A DNA stretch of 64,000 nucleotides, taken from NCBI RefSeq assembly GCF_000758705.1, contig NZ_CP009287.1:4898001-4962000 (forward strand), written 5' to 3'. The notes under the pieces are model-generated. The model ran no database searches and was not told where the DNA came from. It was given only the letters and a program-made list of their open reading frames with translations. This DNA is from Paenibacillus graminis. GTDB lineage: Bacteria > Bacillota > Bacilli > Paenibacillales > Paenibacillaceae. Positions 18,351 to 25,236 of this stretch are shown here, in pieces (position 1 is the first letter of the stretch; each line of letters starts with the position of its first letter). The position numbers and the translations under genes were made by a program.

Positions 18351-18851
18351 TCAACCCGGATTGCGCAGCAGACGGTTGACCGTCTCCCGCCGCACGCCAA
18401 TCAGCTGTCCGATCTCCTCCTGTGTCAATAAATCCGTCAGCTCTGCGCCATGGGAATATTCAAGAAGCCAGCGTTTCAGCAGATCCAGCCGCTCTCCGGG
18501 AGTGCCCACTGTAAGATGGTCCAGGCGGGTCTGCATGAAACGCACCTTCTCTTGAAGCAGCAAGGCGATCTCCATCACTTTATCCGGATCTTCGCGCAGC
18601 TCACGGTACCATTCCGCTGCCGGGACAAGCTCCACTTCACTTTTCATCATCGCTACAGCCGTTCCATGCGCCTCCTTCGGTGAAATGAGTGAATGATGGG
18701 GGACGGTCTCCCCGGGGTACAAGAGATTGAACAGCACCATGTTCCCATTCTCATGCAGCCGGGTTACCTTGAAGAGTCCGCTCTTCACCTGAAACAGATT
18801 CTGGCAGGCATCCCCCTGGCGGAACAGGACCTCTCCTTTGTGCAAAATCAT
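18351..18851 (-). CDS. Short Crp/Fnr family transcriptional regulator
   Basis: A 166-residue protein. The cyclic-nucleotide-binding-like beta roll (MILHKGEVLFRQGDACQNLFQVKSG onwards, about residues 1-85) is followed by the dimer helix and a Crp-type HTH (LTQEEIGQLIGVRRETVNRLL). It is about 50 residues shorter than most relatives: the N-terminus starts in the first strand and the C-terminus ends right after the recognition helix. AAGGAGA precedes the ATG at 18851, so it looks intact rather than truncated. No Fe-S cysteine cluster is present. Its ligand and targets are unknown. Confidence 0.82.
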   Translation of the reverse strand: MILHKGEVLFRQGDACQNLFQVKSGLFKVTRLHENGNMVLFNLLYPGETVPHHSLISPKEAHGTAVAMMKSEVELVPAAEWYRELREDPDKVMEIALLLQEKVRFMQTRLDHLTVGTPGERLDLLKRWLLEYSHGAELTDLLTQEEIGQLIGVRRETVNRLLRNPG

Positions 18852-18999: not shown

Positions 19000-19551
19000 T
19001 TAGTTGCCTGTCCGACTCAATAAAGCGCTGTACCGGTTCTCCAGCCAAGCCAGCAGTTCATCAGCACAATCTTCCGGCGGATGTTTTGCCGTGTACAGCG
19101 TAAGTTCAGGGCTTGCAGGGACTTCATAAGGATCGGAAATGCCGGTAAAAGAGGGAAGCCCGCCACATCGGGCTTTGGCATACAGGCCTTTGACATCCCG
19201 TGCTTCGCAAATCTCCAGCGGACAATTCACATACACTTCTACGAACTCATGCAGCTGCTGCCGGGCATAGCTGCGCATTTCTGCATAAGGACTGATCAGC
19301 GAAATCACCGTTATCACACCATGCCGGTTCAGCAGTTCCGCAACATAGACAGCCCGGCGGATGTTCTCGAAGCGGTCCTCCCGGCTGAATCCGAGCCCGT
19401 GTCCGATGCTGCGCCGCAGCTCATCCCCATCCAGCCATTCCACGGCCTGCCCGGCTGCCCGCAGCCTGTCTGTAATCAGCGCCGCAACCGTAGATTTGCC
19501 GGCCCCGGACAGCCCGGTAAGCCATAGGGTAATTCCCCGTTGGACACTCAT
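19000..19551 (-). CDS. cysC: Adenylylsulfate (APS) kinase, last gene of the STM4011-4015-like operon
   Basis: A 183-residue kinase phosphorylating the 3'-OH of adenosine 5'-phosphosulfate to give PAPS. Signatures are intact: P-loop GLSGAGKST (residues 13-21), LDGDELRRSIGHGLGFSREDRFENIRR, SLISPYAEMRSYAR and the lid KGLYAKARCGGLPSFTGISDPYE. The start overlaps the stop of the preceding radical SAM gene by 4 bases (ATGA), so translation is coupled. No sulfate adenylyltransferase or PAPS reductase gene lies nearby. This suggests it supplies PAPS, or phosphorylates an APS-like intermediate, for the pathway of this cluster. Confidence 0.93.
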   Translation of the reverse strand: MSVQRGITLWLTGLSGAGKSTVAALITDRLRAAGQAVEWLDGDELRRSIGHGLGFSREDRFENIRRAVYVAELLNRHGVITVISLISPYAEMRSYARQQLHEFVEVYVNCPLEICEARDVKGLYAKARCGGLPSFTGISDPYEVPASPELTLYTAKHPPEDCADELLAWLENRYSALLSRTGN

Positions 19552-20420
19552 TCTCTTCCCTCCCGTACCCCGTAGGGGATCCGTTCCAGCAGCCCGGCTC
19601 CATACACTTGCTGCAGCTTCAGTTCAGGCATATGGATATAGCCGATATAGCAGTCACAGACCATCATCCGGCAGCTACGTTCCACCGATAAGCCTTCCAG
19701 CCCGTCCCGGTATAGATTGCCGATAACTCCCCTGTCCTTATAACAGCGTTTGACCTGGCCGGGACCTTGCACATAGAAAACATTGCTGCCAGCATTGCAG
19801 GCTTTGCCTAAACTTTCGTAGTCCCGGGTATTGAGCACGAAATGAGGATCTATTCCGCTTAAGAAGGCTATATCCTCCCCGGTATAGTAATTGGGCTTAT
19901 CCTTGTAGGCATTCACCCACAAATAGACCTCTTCCGGCAGAGCCGCACGAAGGGAAGCAATCGCCTCAAAGCTGCTTCTAATCCCGACGCTGCCCACACT
20001 GAAAGGAATCCCCTGTTCATATACAGCCATACATTGAGCAAGAAACCGCTGCTCCGCTACCTGGCCCGGATGATAGGTTGCCCAGAAGGCGGCCTTGTGC
20101 GGGTTCAGCCTGGCAGTGAAATCAAGCCCCGCCGACAGATTGGTCTGGATGGCCACCTTGTCTACATGGTCCAGATTGGACAGTGTAATCATAGCTTCTC
20201 TGTACCAGCGGTGAATCAGTGCCTCGCCGTAGGGATTGAAGAAAATAGACAGGCGGTGCCCTCCGGCTCCCTGGTCGGAAACCCAGCGGACAAACGTCTC
20301 CAGCTCCGCCCGGTCCTTGGCGAGGCGCTCCGCACTGTCTCTAGTCTTGCCAAAGGGACAATAAGGGCAATCATAGTTGCAGGAGGTAAGGGCACCCCGG
20401 TAGTAAAGAACAGCCTTCAT
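19548..20420 (-). CDS. STM4011 family radical SAM protein
   Basis: A 290-residue radical SAM enzyme. The cluster-binding CX3CX2C is Cys14, Cys18 and Cys21 in TSCNYDCPYCPF. A C-terminal part has CYKDRGVIGNL and then CRMMVCDCYIGYIHMPE, a cysteine set like an auxiliary (SPASM/Twitch-like) Fe-S cluster. It corresponds to the STM4011 family, always found with the other genes of this cluster. Substrate unknown; a protein, peptide or small molecule could be modified. The start at 20420 overlaps the upstream stop by 4 bases. The longer frame to 20585 is a shadow of the upstream gene. Confidence 0.88.
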   Translation of the reverse strand: MKAVLYYRGALTSCNYDCPYCPFGKTRDSAERLAKDRAELETFVRWVSDQGAGGHRLSIFFNPYGEALIHRWYREAMITLSNLDHVDKVAIQTNLSAGLDFTARLNPHKAAFWATYHPGQVAEQRFLAQCMAVYEQGIPFSVGSVGIRSSFEAIASLRAALPEEVYLWVNAYKDKPNYYTGEDIAFLSGIDPHFVLNTRDYESLGKACNAGSNVFYVQGPGQVKRCYKDRGVIGNLYRDGLEGLSVERSCRMMVCDCYIGYIHMPELKLQQVYGAGLLERIPYGVREGRE

Positions 20421-21802
20421 GGCAAAACAAACCTTTCCATCTGCTTCCGGATCTCGCCTGAAATAAACCAGTCGCCGATTGAATCGGAGTAGCCGAGGCC
20501 TTCCGGGGTCAGGCGCAGTATGCCGTCCTCTTCCCTGCCCAGGCCGCTTTGCAGCAGCAGCCCCAGCTCCGGGTAATCCCTCCACAGAGAAGAGGCAAAC
20601 CGCCCGCTGTAGTCCGCCAGCTTCAGTCCTTCGCTGTGCAGAACCGCCTTCAGAATAAACCGCCGCTTCTGCTCTTCAAGGCTCAGCATAATGCCGTAGT
20701 CTGCAGTGTCATAGCGTTCAGCCGAAACATAATCGGCGATAATACTCTCCGTAGCCTTGCGGCTGACCCCGTAACGGGACGCATAATGTACATTCCGGGT
20801 ATAGGATCTGGCTCCGCAGCCCAAGCCCACCATTCCTTCCTCCTGGCAGCTGTAATCCAGAATGGGTTTGTGCGTTCCGGCGGTTTCCTTGGCAAAACGG
20901 CGCATGGAATATTGGGTGTAGCCATGCCCCGTCAAAAGCAGCTGCGCTGCCTGATAACATTCATGGCGGATGTCCGGCTGGCGCTGAATATCCTCTGGCT
21001 TCACGATTGTGTGGTGGCGCGTATATAACGGATAAATGAAAATTTCCTCCGGCCCTTGGTTGACCGCCTGCTGCAGGGAAAACAGCCAGGATTCCACAGT
21101 CTGGCCCGGGAGGCCGTAGATCAGATCCAGATTCAGAATTGGAAAATCATACTGTTTCAGCAGCTCCAGCGCCCGGTATACCACATCCGGATTCTGCGGG
21201 CGGTATATGGCGGCCGACTCCGCAGCGACAAAGCTCTGAATGCCCATGCTGACCCGGTCGACGGTATGTTCCTTCAGGATATTCAGCTTCTCTTCCGTTA
21301 GCGTCTCCGGAGACGTTTCTACCGAGATAGAGGCTGTGGCAGCGTCCAGGCCCATAATATCCTCAGCAATCCCGAACAGCCGGCGGAGCTGTGCAGGGGC
21401 AAGCAGGCTGGGGGTGCCGCCCCCTATAGCGAACCTTGCGAACGGCTTGCTGCCGGTGAATGCCGCCCACTGCCTGGCCTGGCGCTCCAGGGCATTTACA
21501 TACACGGTATGCACCTCGGCCCGCTTGTCAGGCAGGGTGAACAGGTTGCAGAAGCCGCAGCGCGCGCCGCAGAAGGGAATATGCATATAGAGAAAAAAGC
21601 TCTCCGCAGGCTCCTCCCGCCAGAGCGGCTCCAGCGGAACCGGCGGATTTAGGTCGCGGTAAGCGGTTTTGTGCGGATAGGAATATAGATAATTTCGGTA
21701 AGCCTCAGCGGTAATGCGTTCTCTCCACTGCGTAACGTCCTCCGAAGGGAATGGTGTTCTTCCGTCATCGCGGAGATGCAGGGGAGGCTGTGTTGACGTC
21801 AT
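20417..21802 (-). CDS. STM4012 family radical SAM protein (HemN/HemW-like)
   Basis: A 461-residue radical SAM protein related to oxygen-independent coproporphyrinogen oxidases. CX3CX2C is Cys78, Cys82 and Cys85 in MHIPFCGARCGFCNLFTLP. FAIGGGTPSLL, SVETSPETLTEEKL and DRVSMGIQSF follow, as in HemN, and a HemN-type C-terminal domain is present. In this genomic setting it belongs to the STM4012 family and probably does not make haem. The start at 21802 follows GGATGGAG; the upstream extension overlaps the previous gene and is rejected. It is 37 bases after the hydrolase gene and overlaps the next by ATGA. Confidence 0.88.
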   Translation of the reverse strand: MTSTQPPLHLRDDGRTPFPSEDVTQWRERITAEAYRNYLYSYPHKTAYRDLNPPVPLEPLWREEPAESFFLYMHIPFCGARCGFCNLFTLPDKRAEVHTVYVNALERQARQWAAFTGSKPFARFAIGGGTPSLLAPAQLRRLFGIAEDIMGLDAATASISVETSPETLTEEKLNILKEHTVDRVSMGIQSFVAAESAAIYRPQNPDVVYRALELLKQYDFPILNLDLIYGLPGQTVESWLFSLQQAVNQGPEEIFIYPLYTRHHTIVKPEDIQRQPDIRHECYQAAQLLLTGHGYTQYSMRRFAKETAGTHKPILDYSCQEEGMVGLGCGARSYTRNVHYASRYGVSRKATESIIADYVSAERYDTADYGIMLSLEEQKRRFILKAVLHSEGLKLADYSGRFASSLWRDYPELGLLLQSGLGREEDGILRLTPEGLGYSDSIGDWFISGEIRKQMERFVLP

Positions 21803-21839
21803 ACGGTCTCCATCCTTTCGGGTAAAATCCGGTGCTGGG

Positions 21840-22625
21840 CTATAGGAAAAACTCCCGGTAAGGGACATTCCACACGGTTTCATGCGCCAGCCTGTGTCCA
21901 TGGTAGCCCTCTTCGCCGAAAGCCTCGCCATGATCTGAAAAAGCCAGGCAAAAGACCGGATTGCCGCGTTCACGAAATGCATCGAACAGCCGGCCCAGTT
22001 CGCCGTCCACATAGCGCAGCGCAGCGCGCTGGGTGTCTATGGAATCTTTGCGGGCACCCGGTACAAAATAGTGATTCGGCCCGTGGATCGCCGAGACATT
22101 CAGAAACAGGAACAGCCTCTGATCCAGCGGGGTGTCCTTCAGCAGCTTCAGGGCATGGTTCACCTGATGTTCTGTGGACCGGGGGTTCGTGACCCCGAAC
22201 GTCATCCGCCAGTAGCTGTGCTGGAAATAGCCCGGCAGGACCCGGGCGAGCGGTACTTTTTTGCTAAAAAAAATCACTCCCCCTATACAAAGGGTCCGAT
22301 AGCCTTCGGCGGCAAGCCCTGACACAACATCCGGCGTATCAAACAGCCAGGTGTGGGGGTGGGTCTTCATGCCGGTATTCCGCGAGTGGAACAGCCTCAC
22401 ATGCCGGGATTTGTCCGTGGTAGCCGGGGTAGGCAGAAAACCGCCGAAAAAGGCATGATGCGCGGCATAGGTGAAGCTCCCGGGGGTATGCCTTTTTTCC
22501 CAGGAACCGGTCCCGCACAGATTGGGGCAGTTCGCTTCCTCCAGAACCGCTGCGTCATAGCGCAGGGTGTCGAGTGTGATCATCAGCAGATCGTGGCTGC
22601 CGATAACAGCATTCATGTCTGTCAT
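21840..22625 (-). CDS. STM4013 family alkaline-phosphatase-superfamily hydrolase
   Basis: A 261-residue protein with the metal-binding motifs of the alkaline phosphatase/sulfatase superfamily: LLMITLDTLRYDA at the start (metal Asp and likely Thr nucleophile), LNVSAIHGPNHYFVPG in the middle, and LAFSDHGEAFGEEGYHGH near the end. It is cytosolic, with no signal peptide. It may remove or transfer a phosphate, sulfate or phospho-group. There is no sulfatase CXPXR formylglycine motif, so a true sulfatase is unlikely. The start at 22625 overlaps the ATP-grasp gene stop by 4 bases. Confidence 0.86.
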   Translation of the reverse strand: MTDMNAVIGSHDLLMITLDTLRYDAAVLEEANCPNLCGTGSWEKRHTPGSFTYAAHHAFFGGFLPTPATTDKSRHVRLFHSRNTGMKTHPHTWLFDTPDVVSGLAAEGYRTLCIGGVIFFSKKVPLARVLPGYFQHSYWRMTFGVTNPRSTEHQVNHALKLLKDTPLDQRLFLFLNVSAIHGPNHYFVPGARKDSIDTQRAALRYVDGELGRLFDAFRERGNPVFCLAFSDHGEAFGEEGYHGHRLAHETVWNVPYREFFL

Positions 22626-23866
22626 AAGTGTCCTTCCTTTATGAGCTGCTTCATTTCCCATTCATAAGTGCCGAATCCCTGATACTCTACGTCATAGAGC
22701 AAGTCGCCAAAAGGATTGACATCTGCGGCATAGGTTAGTTGAGAGCCGGCGGATACCAGCACATCTATCCCTGCAACACTTGATCCCGGAAAAGCCGCCA
22801 GCGCATGGACTGCAGTATTCCTGACCTGTTCCTGAGTCTCCCCGGAAAGTCCCGCCGCTTCCGGGGACATCCGGCGGCTGCGCAGATGAAGGTTGGTGAT
22901 CGGCGTGGTGCTTACCCGGGCAATGGAGTGGCAGGCTTCGCCCAGTACCACCAGCTGGCGGATGTCAAGCGAAGTCCCTCCTGCACCGGATTTGGGAATC
23001 CACTGCTCAGCATAAGCCCCGTGGCGGCATAGCCAATTGATCAATCCGGCAATCGTGCGGCTGTCGGTATAACGCCGCAGCTTGCCGGAATTATAATAAA
23101 CAGGGGGACGGGTAATATAATTCTCTACCCCTACGGTGGTCACCGCAATCTCCGCCCCTGTAGACGGGTTCACCTGGTAGGCAATGACACCGGAAGCAGC
23201 AGACCCGCAGGCCAGCTTAATAAAAACCCGGTGCATGCGCTGCCGGATCATCTGTTCACGGATGGAGCTGTAGTCCTCAAGTGCCTGCTCTGCGCTGAGC
23301 GGACGCGGGATTCTGACATCCGCAGCGGCCAGAAGCTGCTGCGTACGCCGCTTGTCGGTCATATCCGCGATATCCTGCGGATCATTCAGCCACCGGGAAT
23401 CCGGCAGAAGGAGGGCCGCTTCCTCCCGAAGCCTGGCCAGCAGGCGGCAATAGCCGCGAAACCACTGGGAAGGATGATGCAGCACACCGGGCATGTCCCG
23501 AAGCTTTCCGGCGGTTCTACAGCTTAGCGGATAAGGATCAGGCTTCTGCCCGAAGGGATGCAGGGCATCGCTGGAGGCACCGGCATCCGGCGCACCCAGC
23601 ATAATTAAGGCCCGCTCCACCTCAAAGCTGCCACCTGGCGAGTCCAGCCGGAGCAGCGGCGCGGGAGTGCCGGGGGCTGGTCCGTTTGCAAGATCCAGGC
23701 AGCCCTCTGCTGCCAGGAGGCCGGCCAGCGTTTGGCCAGCCAGCAGGCCAGTATACGGTAAAATAATGGCCGGCGGCAGCCCCAGACGGCTTCTCGCCTG
23801 TTGAATTCCGCCAGTCCGCTTGTCACCGGGGATGCCGATGACGATCAGCGGCCGCGTCTTCTTCAT
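22622..23866 (-). CDS. STM4014 family ATP-grasp protein
   Basis: A 414-residue protein whose second half reads as an ATP-grasp domain. VFIKLACGSAASGVIAY gives the ATP-binding Lys, DIRQLVVLGEACHSIARVS follows, and VAGIDVLV with YAADVNPFGDLL gives the metal-binding Asp/Asn. ATP-grasp enzymes join a carboxylate to an amine or thiol through an acyl phosphate. The N-terminal 180 residues are family-specific. The start is either the ATG at 23866 (TGATG overlap with the upstream stop) or the GTG at 23869; I give the ATG. Confidence 0.86.
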   Translation of the reverse strand: MKKTRPLIVIGIPGDKRTGGIQQARSRLGLPPAIILPYTGLLAGQTLAGLLAAEGCLDLANGPAPGTPAPLLRLDSPGGSFEVERALIMLGAPDAGASSDALHPFGQKPDPYPLSCRTAGKLRDMPGVLHHPSQWFRGYCRLLARLREEAALLLPDSRWLNDPQDIADMTDKRRTQQLLAAADVRIPRPLSAEQALEDYSSIREQMIRQRMHRVFIKLACGSAASGVIAYQVNPSTGAEIAVTTVGVENYITRPPVYYNSGKLRRYTDSRTIAGLINWLCRHGAYAEQWIPKSGAGGTSLDIRQLVVLGEACHSIARVSTTPITNLHLRSRRMSPEAAGLSGETQEQVRNTAVHALAAFPGSSVAGIDVLVSAGSQLTYAADVNPFGDLLYDVEYQGFGTYEWEMKQLIKEGHL

Positions 23867-24711
23867 CACTCTGTGATGGAAGGATACCGCCAGTCTTCGT
23901 CATCATCGCTGGTCTGGCGGTCGCTGACATCCGCTGGCAAGCCGCTGCGCTGCCAGCGGGCAAGCATCTCTTCAGACATATAATGATGGCTCAGGTTCAG
24001 CGCCTTCAAGCCTTTGATCCGTTCGCTGGCCAAAAGCACCTCCGCACCTTTGTCACTAAGCGTTCCCAGAGACAGGTCAAGTGTATCCAGCTGGTCCAGG
24101 ATTGGGGCATCTGCAACCGCTATGGCGATTTCATCCTGGATTTCGCTGTTTTTCAGGCCAAGGTATGTAAGCTTTGGAAATTTACCCGGCTCCATAAGCG
24201 GAATAATATCTTCAAGGCTGCCGTCAAAACCATAATTATCGACACCCAGGTATAGCTCCAGCTTGCGCAGATTCGGGAGCTCAGCAGCCGCGATTTGGGC
24301 CAGAACGCCCTTGCCCAGACCGCCGGTAATAATAATTAGCTCTTCCAGCTTGTCATGCTGCAGCTTACTCAGGCTCAGATCGTTCCCGCCCTGAATCGTC
24401 AGCGATTGAAGCTCCGGGAAAGCCGGCAGCAGCGGAGAAAGATCACTTTGCGTAATCCACGAAATCTCACACTCCTCATACCCCATCTCGCCGATGAACA
24501 GCTTGCGGAGGGCCGGGAAGCTTGCGCTGTGTTTTACGAGCGCTTCTACAACGTCCTCCGAGCTGTTCTCATAAGCCTGCCCCCAGTCTCCGATAACAAG
24601 ACTGTTCAGCGATGCGGCTTCGGGACTTGCGCTTAAGCTTTCAATCGCTGCTCCTATCCGCTGGCCATCTTCAAATTCATCGTACCCAACCGTAAGTTTA
24701 ACTTCTGACAT
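23866..24711 (-). CDS. STM4015 family leucine-rich-repeat protein, first gene of the operon
   Basis: A 281-residue acidic protein. It has several leucine-rich repeats from about residue 60 to 250, for example FPALRKLFIGEMGYEE, FPELQSLTIQGGNDLS, LPNLRKLELYLGVDN, FPKLTYLGLKNSEI and LDQLDTLDLSLGTLS. It has no signal peptide or membrane segment. In this conserved cluster the LRR protein may be a scaffold or itself the substrate of the radical SAM and ATP-grasp enzymes; that is inference. GGGAGGG stands just before the ATG. A gene-free stretch of 600 bases lies upstream and should contain the operon promoter. Confidence 0.86.
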   Translation of the reverse strand: MSEVKLTVGYDEFEDGQRIGAAIESLSASPEAASLNSLVIGDWGQAYENSSEDVVEALVKHSASFPALRKLFIGEMGYEECEISWITQSDLSPLLPAFPELQSLTIQGGNDLSLSKLQHDKLEELIIITGGLGKGVLAQIAAAELPNLRKLELYLGVDNYGFDGSLEDIIPLMEPGKFPKLTYLGLKNSEIQDEIAIAVADAPILDQLDTLDLSLGTLSDKGAEVLLASERIKGLKALNLSHHYMSEEMLARWQRSGLPADVSDRQTSDDDEDWRYPSITE

Positions 24712-25236
24712 GAGTAATCCCTCCCGGCAAATTTTGGCTATAAATTACCCTAACATCTTCGGGGAGGGTTGGTCAAATGAATCCATGTGCTGACGGTGAT
24801 GTCCACTCTGTCAAACCGGGAGACACTGGTTGTTAAGTAGCTTTTCAGTGAAAAGAGCATCTGTTAACCGGCTTCGTCAGCTGGTTAGGTGGAAAAATAT
24901 CACTAATTTGTTTAAGTATCAGCAACTCGGCAAGCTAAGTGGAAAAAGGCGCACTAATTCAGCCTATTTCGATCCACATAAGGAAATATCGGTGAATCCA
25001 GTTCCCTTTTTCCACTTAATCCTCGCAGTAGTTGATTTCTGAGGAATTTAAGTTTCCTTTTTCCACTTGGCTGGCCACGGGATCGCCCAAAAACGGCATT
25101 TTCGCTTTTGCTCTTACACCTCAAGCGGAGCGCCTCACTCCTTATCCATAAAATAACCCTACTAAGCGGGGCTTTTATATGGATATGGAGGCTGATTCAG
25201 ATACTTTGAAAGGGCCGATAAATCCTTTCAGACATG
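24712..25236. repeat. Intergenic region with AGTGGAAAAAG-type dispersed repeat
   Basis: No gene is seen. AAGTGGAAAAAGG at 24937-24949 faces two reversed copies, CCTTTTTCCACTT, at 25005-25017 and 25056-25068. Words such as CACTAATT lie between them. The same family recurs near 37610, 43614 and 57308. The promoter of the five-gene STM4015-4011 operon plus cysC must also lie here, near 24712-24800. Confidence 0.7.

Follow-up and report, generated by a model that had tools for sequence, protein, structure and literature searches.

A six-gene operon in Paenibacillus graminis

We analysed a 64,000-nucleotide stretch of the complete 7.17-Mb genome of Paenibacillus graminis (G000; NZ_CP009287.1, positions 4,898,001 to 4,962,000), hereafter called the window, whose own numbering is used below. 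Six intact open reading frames (ORFs) lie there on the minus strand in the order STM4015-4014-4013-4012-4011-cysC. They encode a 281-residue leucine-rich repeat (LRR) protein of the STM4015 family (23866..24711; NF038076, 357 bits against a cut-off of 275), a 415-residue STM4014-family ATP-grasp ligase with a GTG start (22622..23869; NF038074, 396 bits, cut-off 175), a 261-residue STM4013-family hydrolase or transferase of the alkaline-phosphatase fold (21840..22625; NF038075, 388 bits, cut-off 250; PF00884), a 461-residue HemN-like radical S-adenosylmethionine (SAM) enzyme of the STM4012 family (20417..21802; NF006067, 568 bits, cut-off 380; HemN_C), a 290-residue STM4011-family radical SAM enzyme (19548..20420; NF038073, 394 bits, cut-off 200) and a 183-residue adenylyl-sulfate (APS) kinase, CysC (19000..19551; TIGR00455, 209 bits, cut-off 139; PF01583, 193 bits, cut-off 21.1, 5e-57). 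Fold assignments for these proteins come from sequence profiles. All five STM4011-STM4015 NCBIfam models scored above their curated cut-offs on genes that adjoin in the order 15-14-13-12-11, as an earlier note made from the sequence had recognized. Corrected starts likewise bore out its description of six intact same-strand genes with overlaps of 1-4 bases and one 37-base gap: there are 4-base overlaps at four junctions, the sole gap separates STM4013 from STM4012, and the overlap between STM4015 and STM4014 shrinks to 1 base if an alternative STM4014 ATG at 23866 is used.

cysC lies beside the operon at some loci in several phyla

We compared this locus with others from two sets. Among 245 Paenibacillaceae genomes, STM4011 was found in 97 (98 matches at 1e-3, of which G212 at 3e-4 was dropped), including three with incomplete or broken copies (G082, G130 and G188); the loci compared were 96 fetched surroundings plus the window. 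From other phyla we fetched 80 loci by way of STM4013, out of at least 579 stretches encoding a relative of it. All five core genes were present at 94 of the 97 Paenibacillaceae loci and at 62 of the 80 others, and STM4011 was also found in 40 of 296 Actinomycetes. cysC followed STM4011 on the same strand at 38 of the 97 Paenibacillaceae loci, most often in genera g1 (17/22), g6 (9/12), g8 (7/14) and g17 (4/11), and rarely or never in g7 (1/28), g10 (0/5) and g2 (0/5). A start giving a 4-base overlap was available at 18 of 36 linked loci (window excluded, junction readable), and inspection by eye of the gapped loci G134, G207 and G227 revealed no convincing extra gene between STM4011 and cysC.

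An APS kinase also lay within about 8 kb or less on either side at 7 of the 80 loci of other phyla, where roughly 0.3 would be expected by chance if a genome of 8 Mb carries about 1.6. In Variovorax (L088) the cysC start lies inside the STM4011 stop with a 4-base overlap like that of the window, and in Neomegalonema (L075), where cysC also comes after STM4011, the choice of start decides between an 8-base overlap and a 49-base gap. The five remaining loci are from Myxococcota. At two of them (L070 and L099) a Sat-CysC fusion, which is a complete synthase of 3'-phosphoadenylyl sulfate (PAPS), shares 4 bases with the start of STM4013, and at three (L080, L082 and L101) a divergent cysD-cysN-cysC set lies beside STM4013. 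These modules were confirmed by family models at L099 and L101 (CysN of L101 falls below the cut-off of its own model) and by Pfam at L070, and those at L080 and L082 were recognized by their similarity to L101. The linked kinase thus adjoins STM4013 in Myxococcota and comes after STM4011 in the other groups, and all five core genes are present at L075, L080, L082 and L088. Had cysC adjoined STM4011 in this genome only, the reading of the earlier note would have been refuted; the link extends beyond the window locality and beyond chance.

The operon co-occurs with APS kinases of several origins

CysC is the sole APS kinase match in the window genome, and in the Variovorax and Neomegalonema genomes the linked kinase is the only strong one. 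Within genus g1, all 22 operon-bearing genomes encoded an APS kinase, and none of the ten operon-free genomes encoded one of full length when all candidates were scored; one of the ten (G179) has a 57-residue match (5e-4, 22.0 bits against a Pfam cut-off of 21.1). Across the whole family at 1e-20, a hand count gave an APS kinase in 97 of 97 operon genomes and 73 of 148 others (Fisher 1e-21, with no correction for kinship; a further 21 of the 148 gave weak matches only). All 50 genomes searched from the 80 loci of other phyla, mostly isolates, also encoded one.

We built a tree from 45 linked APS kinases and a chosen sample of 43 unlinked ones. On this tree, whose bootstrap is not fully settled, the linked label required six gains or losses, four of them forced by well-supported branches. 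The linked kinases fell into a large Paenibacillaceae clade (37), the kinase of genome G170, those of Variovorax and Neomegalonema, and two Myxococcota groups, and they look like several recruitments. We also placed the operons on an STM4012 tree of 94 rows, made by a quick method and rooted at the midpoint. Five unlinked g1 operons formed one clade with a support of 99, surrounded by linked operons at supports of 84-87, and three unlinked g6 operons were likewise nested among linked ones. The APS kinases of the five unlinked g1 genomes are found at two other places in the CysC tree, with 42-44% identity to that of the window. This nesting and these tree positions suggest loss of the linked kinase in genomes that have an unrelated one.

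These patterns suggest that the operon pathway probably needs PAPS, since the linkage recurs, the Myxococcota loci carry PAPS modules, and unrelated kinases are present where the linked one is missing. The window genome revealed no further evident PAPS consumer, although its CysH may use PAPS. The sulfotransferase families PF13469 and PF00685, the two that were searched for, had no match in the window genome, which also supports a PAPS need of the operon. The suggestion of the earlier note that the pathway may need PAPS is therefore well supported. It had further remarked that no other sulfate-assimilation genes lie nearby. A genome search for PF01747 and PF01507 (cysN was not part of it) agreed: the window holds neither ATP sulfurylase nor cysH, and the single match to each family, adjoining one another, lies about 1.5 Mb from the operon. 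Relatives of the CysH of this genome were also absent, at 1e-15, from the 184 loci scanned (96 Paenibacillaceae, 80 of other phyla and 8 plasmid loci).

The STM4015 protein ends in a conserved tail

The STM4015 protein of the window ends in RYPSITE (23869..23889, minus strand), preceded by a variable acidic linker, SDDDEDW (23890..23910). We collected 201 closed STM4015-like ORFs at 1e-20, 95 from Paenibacillaceae and 106 from other phyla. The last residue was Glu in 196 of the 201 (94/95 and 102/106, respectively; 102/108 in other phyla at a looser 1e-5), and a C-terminal R[YF]xx[VIL]xE was found in 93 of the 95 and 75 of the 106. Four of the five proteins without a terminal Glu are encoded at loci that also have Glu-ending paralogues, and the fifth belongs to the broken operon of G130. 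That copy (L218) is decaying, with a broken STM4011 frame and an STM4015-like ORF that lacks the tail.

Conservation across the 106 diverse sequences was 1.9-4.0 bits over the last seven positions, highest at R (3.2), Y/F (2.9) and the final E (4.0), against 0.8-1.4 bits through the preceding linker. Among the Paenibacillaceae sequences, which are close relatives, it extends further back than the tail. Asp and Glu make up 36% of the linker in other phyla and 45% in Paenibacillaceae. Five residues before the final Glu stands Tyr or Phe in 94 of the 106 (Phe in 16), and another residue in 12. Over profile positions 25-307, STM4015 also matched a Bacteroides fragilis protein of solved structure (2ra8, Q64V53_BACFR; 9e-83), which has YPMITE at position 354 of its 362-residue chain, the same place as the STM4015 tail; the last 8 residues of that chain are presumably a tag. 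We also observed 2-5 STM4015 paralogues, most of which keep the terminal Glu, at 21 of the 67 loci with STM4015 (for example L058, L064, L065, L071, L109 and L123).

A modified or ligated tail would be expected to look like this, with strong conservation at the tip and little in the linker before it. Conservation supports the last residues of STM4015 as a putative attachment or modification site. The earlier note had left the LRR protein as either scaffold or substrate, and the Glu-ending tail sharpens this choice by pointing to a putative covalent carrier or substrate.

Predicted enzymes of the operon

The best match of STM4014 among solved structures was LysX (1uc8, 2.8e-5), and a broader profile matched LysX and RimK alike at about 1e-4; against the rimK_fam model it scored 23.7 bits, with a cut-off of 143. 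The motif [ED]xNxxGD was present in 70 of 70 STM4014 homologues. STM4013 has nucleotide pyrophosphatase/phosphodiesterases (NPPs) and sulfatases as its nearest solved relatives. Its residues D19, T52, H181, D231 and H232 are invariant in 56 sequences and are presumably catalytic, with T52 (22470-22472, minus strand) as the predicted nucleophile. The two radical SAM enzymes each carry a CX3CX2C motif that is invariant in 7 sequences, at 21548-21571 in STM4012 (C78, C82 and C85) and at 20358-20381 in STM4011 (C14, C18 and C21; both minus strand). STM4011 has in addition five SPASM-like cysteines, also invariant in 7 (C208, C226, C250, C255 and C257, within 19650-19799, minus strand), and its C-terminal part matches SkfB (6efn, 6.7e-4). 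The signature residues of STM4011, STM4012, STM4013 and STM4014 are assumed here to have their customary roles. CysC has a P-loop and the residues common to solved APS kinases, which look canonical, and among solved structures it is closest to 5cb6 (1.4e-51), an entry called 'Probable adenylyl-sulfate kinase'. A CysC with an altered pocket was considered and rejected, as we saw no consistent residue change and in view of this nearest relative. We also discarded the idea of an anti-phage defence system, for which PADLOC gave only PDC-M51A (1e-12 over 106 residues of STM4012) and weak matches.

Other genes and repeats at the loci

A short Crp/Fnr-like regulator gene (18351-18851, minus strand) lies 148 bases downstream of cysC, and a Crp/Fnr gene lies upstream of a Deinococcus operon. 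Upstream of the window operon, at 24877-25076, are four copies of a repeat of the type GTGGAAAAA, two in each orientation. An Rfam scan of the window gave no match.

A DUF6745 protein and a partner of about 100 residues occur together beside the operon at 29 of the 184 loci scanned (24 of the 80 of other phyla, 5 of the 8 plasmid loci and none of the 96 from Paenibacillaceae), for example at L035:9192-10513, L037:2668-3993 and L038:1308-2772. The last residue is Thr in 27 of 29 DUF6745 proteins and Asp in all 29 partners. In Deinococcus the DUF6745 protein appears by eye to have an LRR-like N terminus, and the two partners tested had no Pfam match. A HAD hydrolase gene precedes STM4013, mostly overlapping its start, at 13 of the 80 loci (including L104:7345-8013), none of which is among the seven cysC loci of other phyla. 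On plasmids of Rhizobium tropici (L041:6977-9294) and Cupriavidus taiwanensis (L042:6920-9255), a class I SAM methyltransferase comes after an STM4012 homologue; these stretches carry no annotation of the other four families.

A possible PAPS-dependent pathway on the STM4015 tail

Considering both the APS kinase and the tail, we propose that the operon encodes a PAPS-dependent pathway that acts on the C-terminal tail of STM4015, a reading to which we give slightly less than an even chance. CysC would phosphorylate the APS that the product of the distant sat gene makes, and so provide PAPS for the operon pathway; that it serves this pathway and not sulfate assimilation is well supported by the genomic patterns. 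STM4014 would activate a carboxylate of the terminal STM4015 Glu for coupling to an amine, in the manner of LysX acting on LysW. The SPASM-type STM4011 and the HemN-like STM4012 may then modify the tail or its cargo by radical chemistry. The weakest step is that of STM4013, which might transfer a sulfuryl, phosphoryl or phosphoadenylyl group or remove it by hydrolysis and would be the first candidate for the PAPS user. Multiple STM4015 paralogues at a locus could serve as alternative carriers or substrates for one enzyme set. The chemistry of the operon and the identity of its PAPS-using enzyme are thus put forward as candidates. If this reading is true, it would mean a new carrier-protein chemistry and PAPS use outside sulfotransferases and sulfate reduction. 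Doubtful, in our estimate, is the more specific proposal of a new class of ribosomal carrier-protein biosynthesis, in which the ATP-grasp ligase, both radical SAM enzymes and the alkaline-phosphatase-fold enzyme would assemble a PAPS-derived sulfated or phosphoadenylylated product on the RYxxVxE tail of folded LRR proteins; STM4013 would in that case be a PAPS-using transferase. Two handles make the operon testable, namely its probable PAPS need and the last Glu of the LRR protein.

Several points weigh against this pathway, in addition to the CysH matches taken up below. We know of no core operon family that binds PAPS, nor of an alkaline-phosphatase fold that uses it. No APS kinase lay within about 8 kb or less on either side at 73 of the 80 loci of other phyla. 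STM4014 and STM4015 were absent from the stretches examined at L070, L099 and L101, as was STM4012 at L070, so that the PAPS module there goes with STM4013 and STM4011 and not visibly with a carrier. One operon-bearing Actinomycete, G518, had no detected APS kinase, an exception that may be real or caused by the assembly. Co-occurrence in Actinomycetes (at 1e-20 and by hand count, 39 of 40 STM4011 genomes against 190 of 256 others, with the weak STM4011 match of G426 counted as negative) says little because it is confounded with genome size, the listed kinase-free genomes being 1.0-4.6 Mb and the operon-bearing ones 3.6-10.7 Mb. A conserved end is by itself no proof of modification, because the partner of the DUF6745 protein, too, has an invariant last residue, an Asp. 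The likeness of STM4014 to LysX is weak and extends to RimK, and the LysX signature GSWGR, by which LysX reads the EDWGE of its carrier, was found in 0 of 70 STM4014 sequences. A lack of GSWGR would be expected if STM4014 reads a different tail, and we therefore do not file it as LysX.

Other readings of the tail would leave PAPS in place. The tail might be the core of a ribosomally synthesized and post-translationally modified peptide (RiPP), altered by the radical SAM enzymes, sulfated with PAPS and finally released by cleavage to give a small product or cofactor, with the LRR domain as an unusually large leader. The position of the tail at the extreme C terminus behind a flexible linker, the presence of several STM4015 ORFs per single enzyme set, the SPASM relative SkfB and the frequent Tyr or Phe five residues before the Glu would all suit such a system. 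However, a partial look at neighbour families revealed no recurrent peptidase, and an ATP-grasp enzyme beside a terminal Glu suits a carrier as well; we consider this reading unlikely. A Tyr-Glu crosslink of the kind in pyrroloquinoline quinone was rejected, since Tyr is not kept in 28 of the 106 diverse tails, those with Phe or another residue, which makes such Tyr chemistry unlikely. The tail could instead be a recognition motif that docks the operon enzymes, whose true substrate would be a small molecule or another protein and which would still need PAPS. C-terminal motifs can serve recognition without being modified, and covalent change on STM4015 is itself an inference. Docking explains less readily why a near-invariant terminal Glu stands beside a LysX/RimK-related ligase and why most paralogues keep the motif, and we regard it as improbable.

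Two further readings concern CysC itself. CysC-fold kinases with other substrates exist, such as the cytidine diphosphoramidate kinase of Campylobacter, and the window holds no linked source of APS, so CysC might phosphorylate a different nucleotide. The earlier note had offered an adenylylated intermediate as such a substrate. The ATP sulfurylase of the Myxococcota Sat-CysC and cysD-cysN-cysC modules, the canonical residues of CysC, and the seemingly interchangeable unrelated APS kinases found where the linked one is missing all disfavour this idea, which we think very unlikely. That CysC is an ordinary sulfate-assimilation kinase placed here by chance would agree with the lack of a second APS kinase match in this genome, and turns on the type of CysH. 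This protein carries a CC...CxxC pattern, which we take as a mark of APS reductases, and it scored above the APS-reductase model TIGR02055 (250 against 235) and below the PAPS-reductase model TIGR02057 (222 against 254), but it also exceeded the phosphoadenylyl-sulfate reductase models NF002537 (287 against 154) and TIGR00434 (254 against 165), so that it may use PAPS too. The linkage is repeated elsewhere, and the ten operon-free g1 genomes without a full-length APS kinase also argue against an assimilatory role, a pattern that is telling only if those genomes assimilate sulfate. On the CysH type and the g1 pattern we put this reading aside as highly improbable, while the general-model matches of CysH remain.

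Comparison with known systems

The operon is common, and the literature searched gives no function for the five families that carry these names; STM4013 or STM4015 is named there by two papers only, in tables. The window genes are members of the NCBIfam families STM4011-STM4015, whose model names and descriptions give no function, PAPS link or tail. A survey of graspetides (PMC8939145) makes no mention of leucine-rich, LRR, STM4014, LysX or HemN. The B. fragilis protein 2ra8 differs from the window protein in being about 70 residues longer at its N terminus, an extension that we take to be a WGR domain. The C-terminal cysteine region of STM4011 resembles that of SkfB and other SPASM enzymes of RiPP pathways; unlike in SkfB systems, no thioether site was identified, and no systematic search for a short precursor peptide was made.

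A close parallel is with LysW and LysX (PMC10433800). LysX attaches an amino group to LysW at the gamma-carboxyl of its last Glu, and Ala in place of the last Glu of ArgW makes the cell require arginine. In both systems a protein with an acidic stretch and a terminal Glu is encoded in one cluster with an ATP-grasp ligase, which in the operon resembles the RimK/LysX type weakly. They differ in that STM4015 is an LRR protein and LysW a small zinc protein; in that the tail is RYPSITE in the window and RYxxVxE in relatives, with no EDWGE, and STM4014 lacks GSWGR; and in that the operon adds two radical SAM enzymes, an alkaline-phosphatase-fold enzyme and a PAPS supply. With the pearlins (PMC9303977) the operon would share the building of a small molecule on a ribosomal C terminus and tailoring by radical SAM enzymes. 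It has an ATP-grasp enzyme in place of the peptide aminoacyl-tRNA ligase (PEARL), a model of which matched none of the six operon proteins, the only ones scanned, and its proposed carrier is large and folded. As a set of parts the operon therefore appears to match neither LysW/LysX nor the pearlins, but in principle it seems to resemble both.

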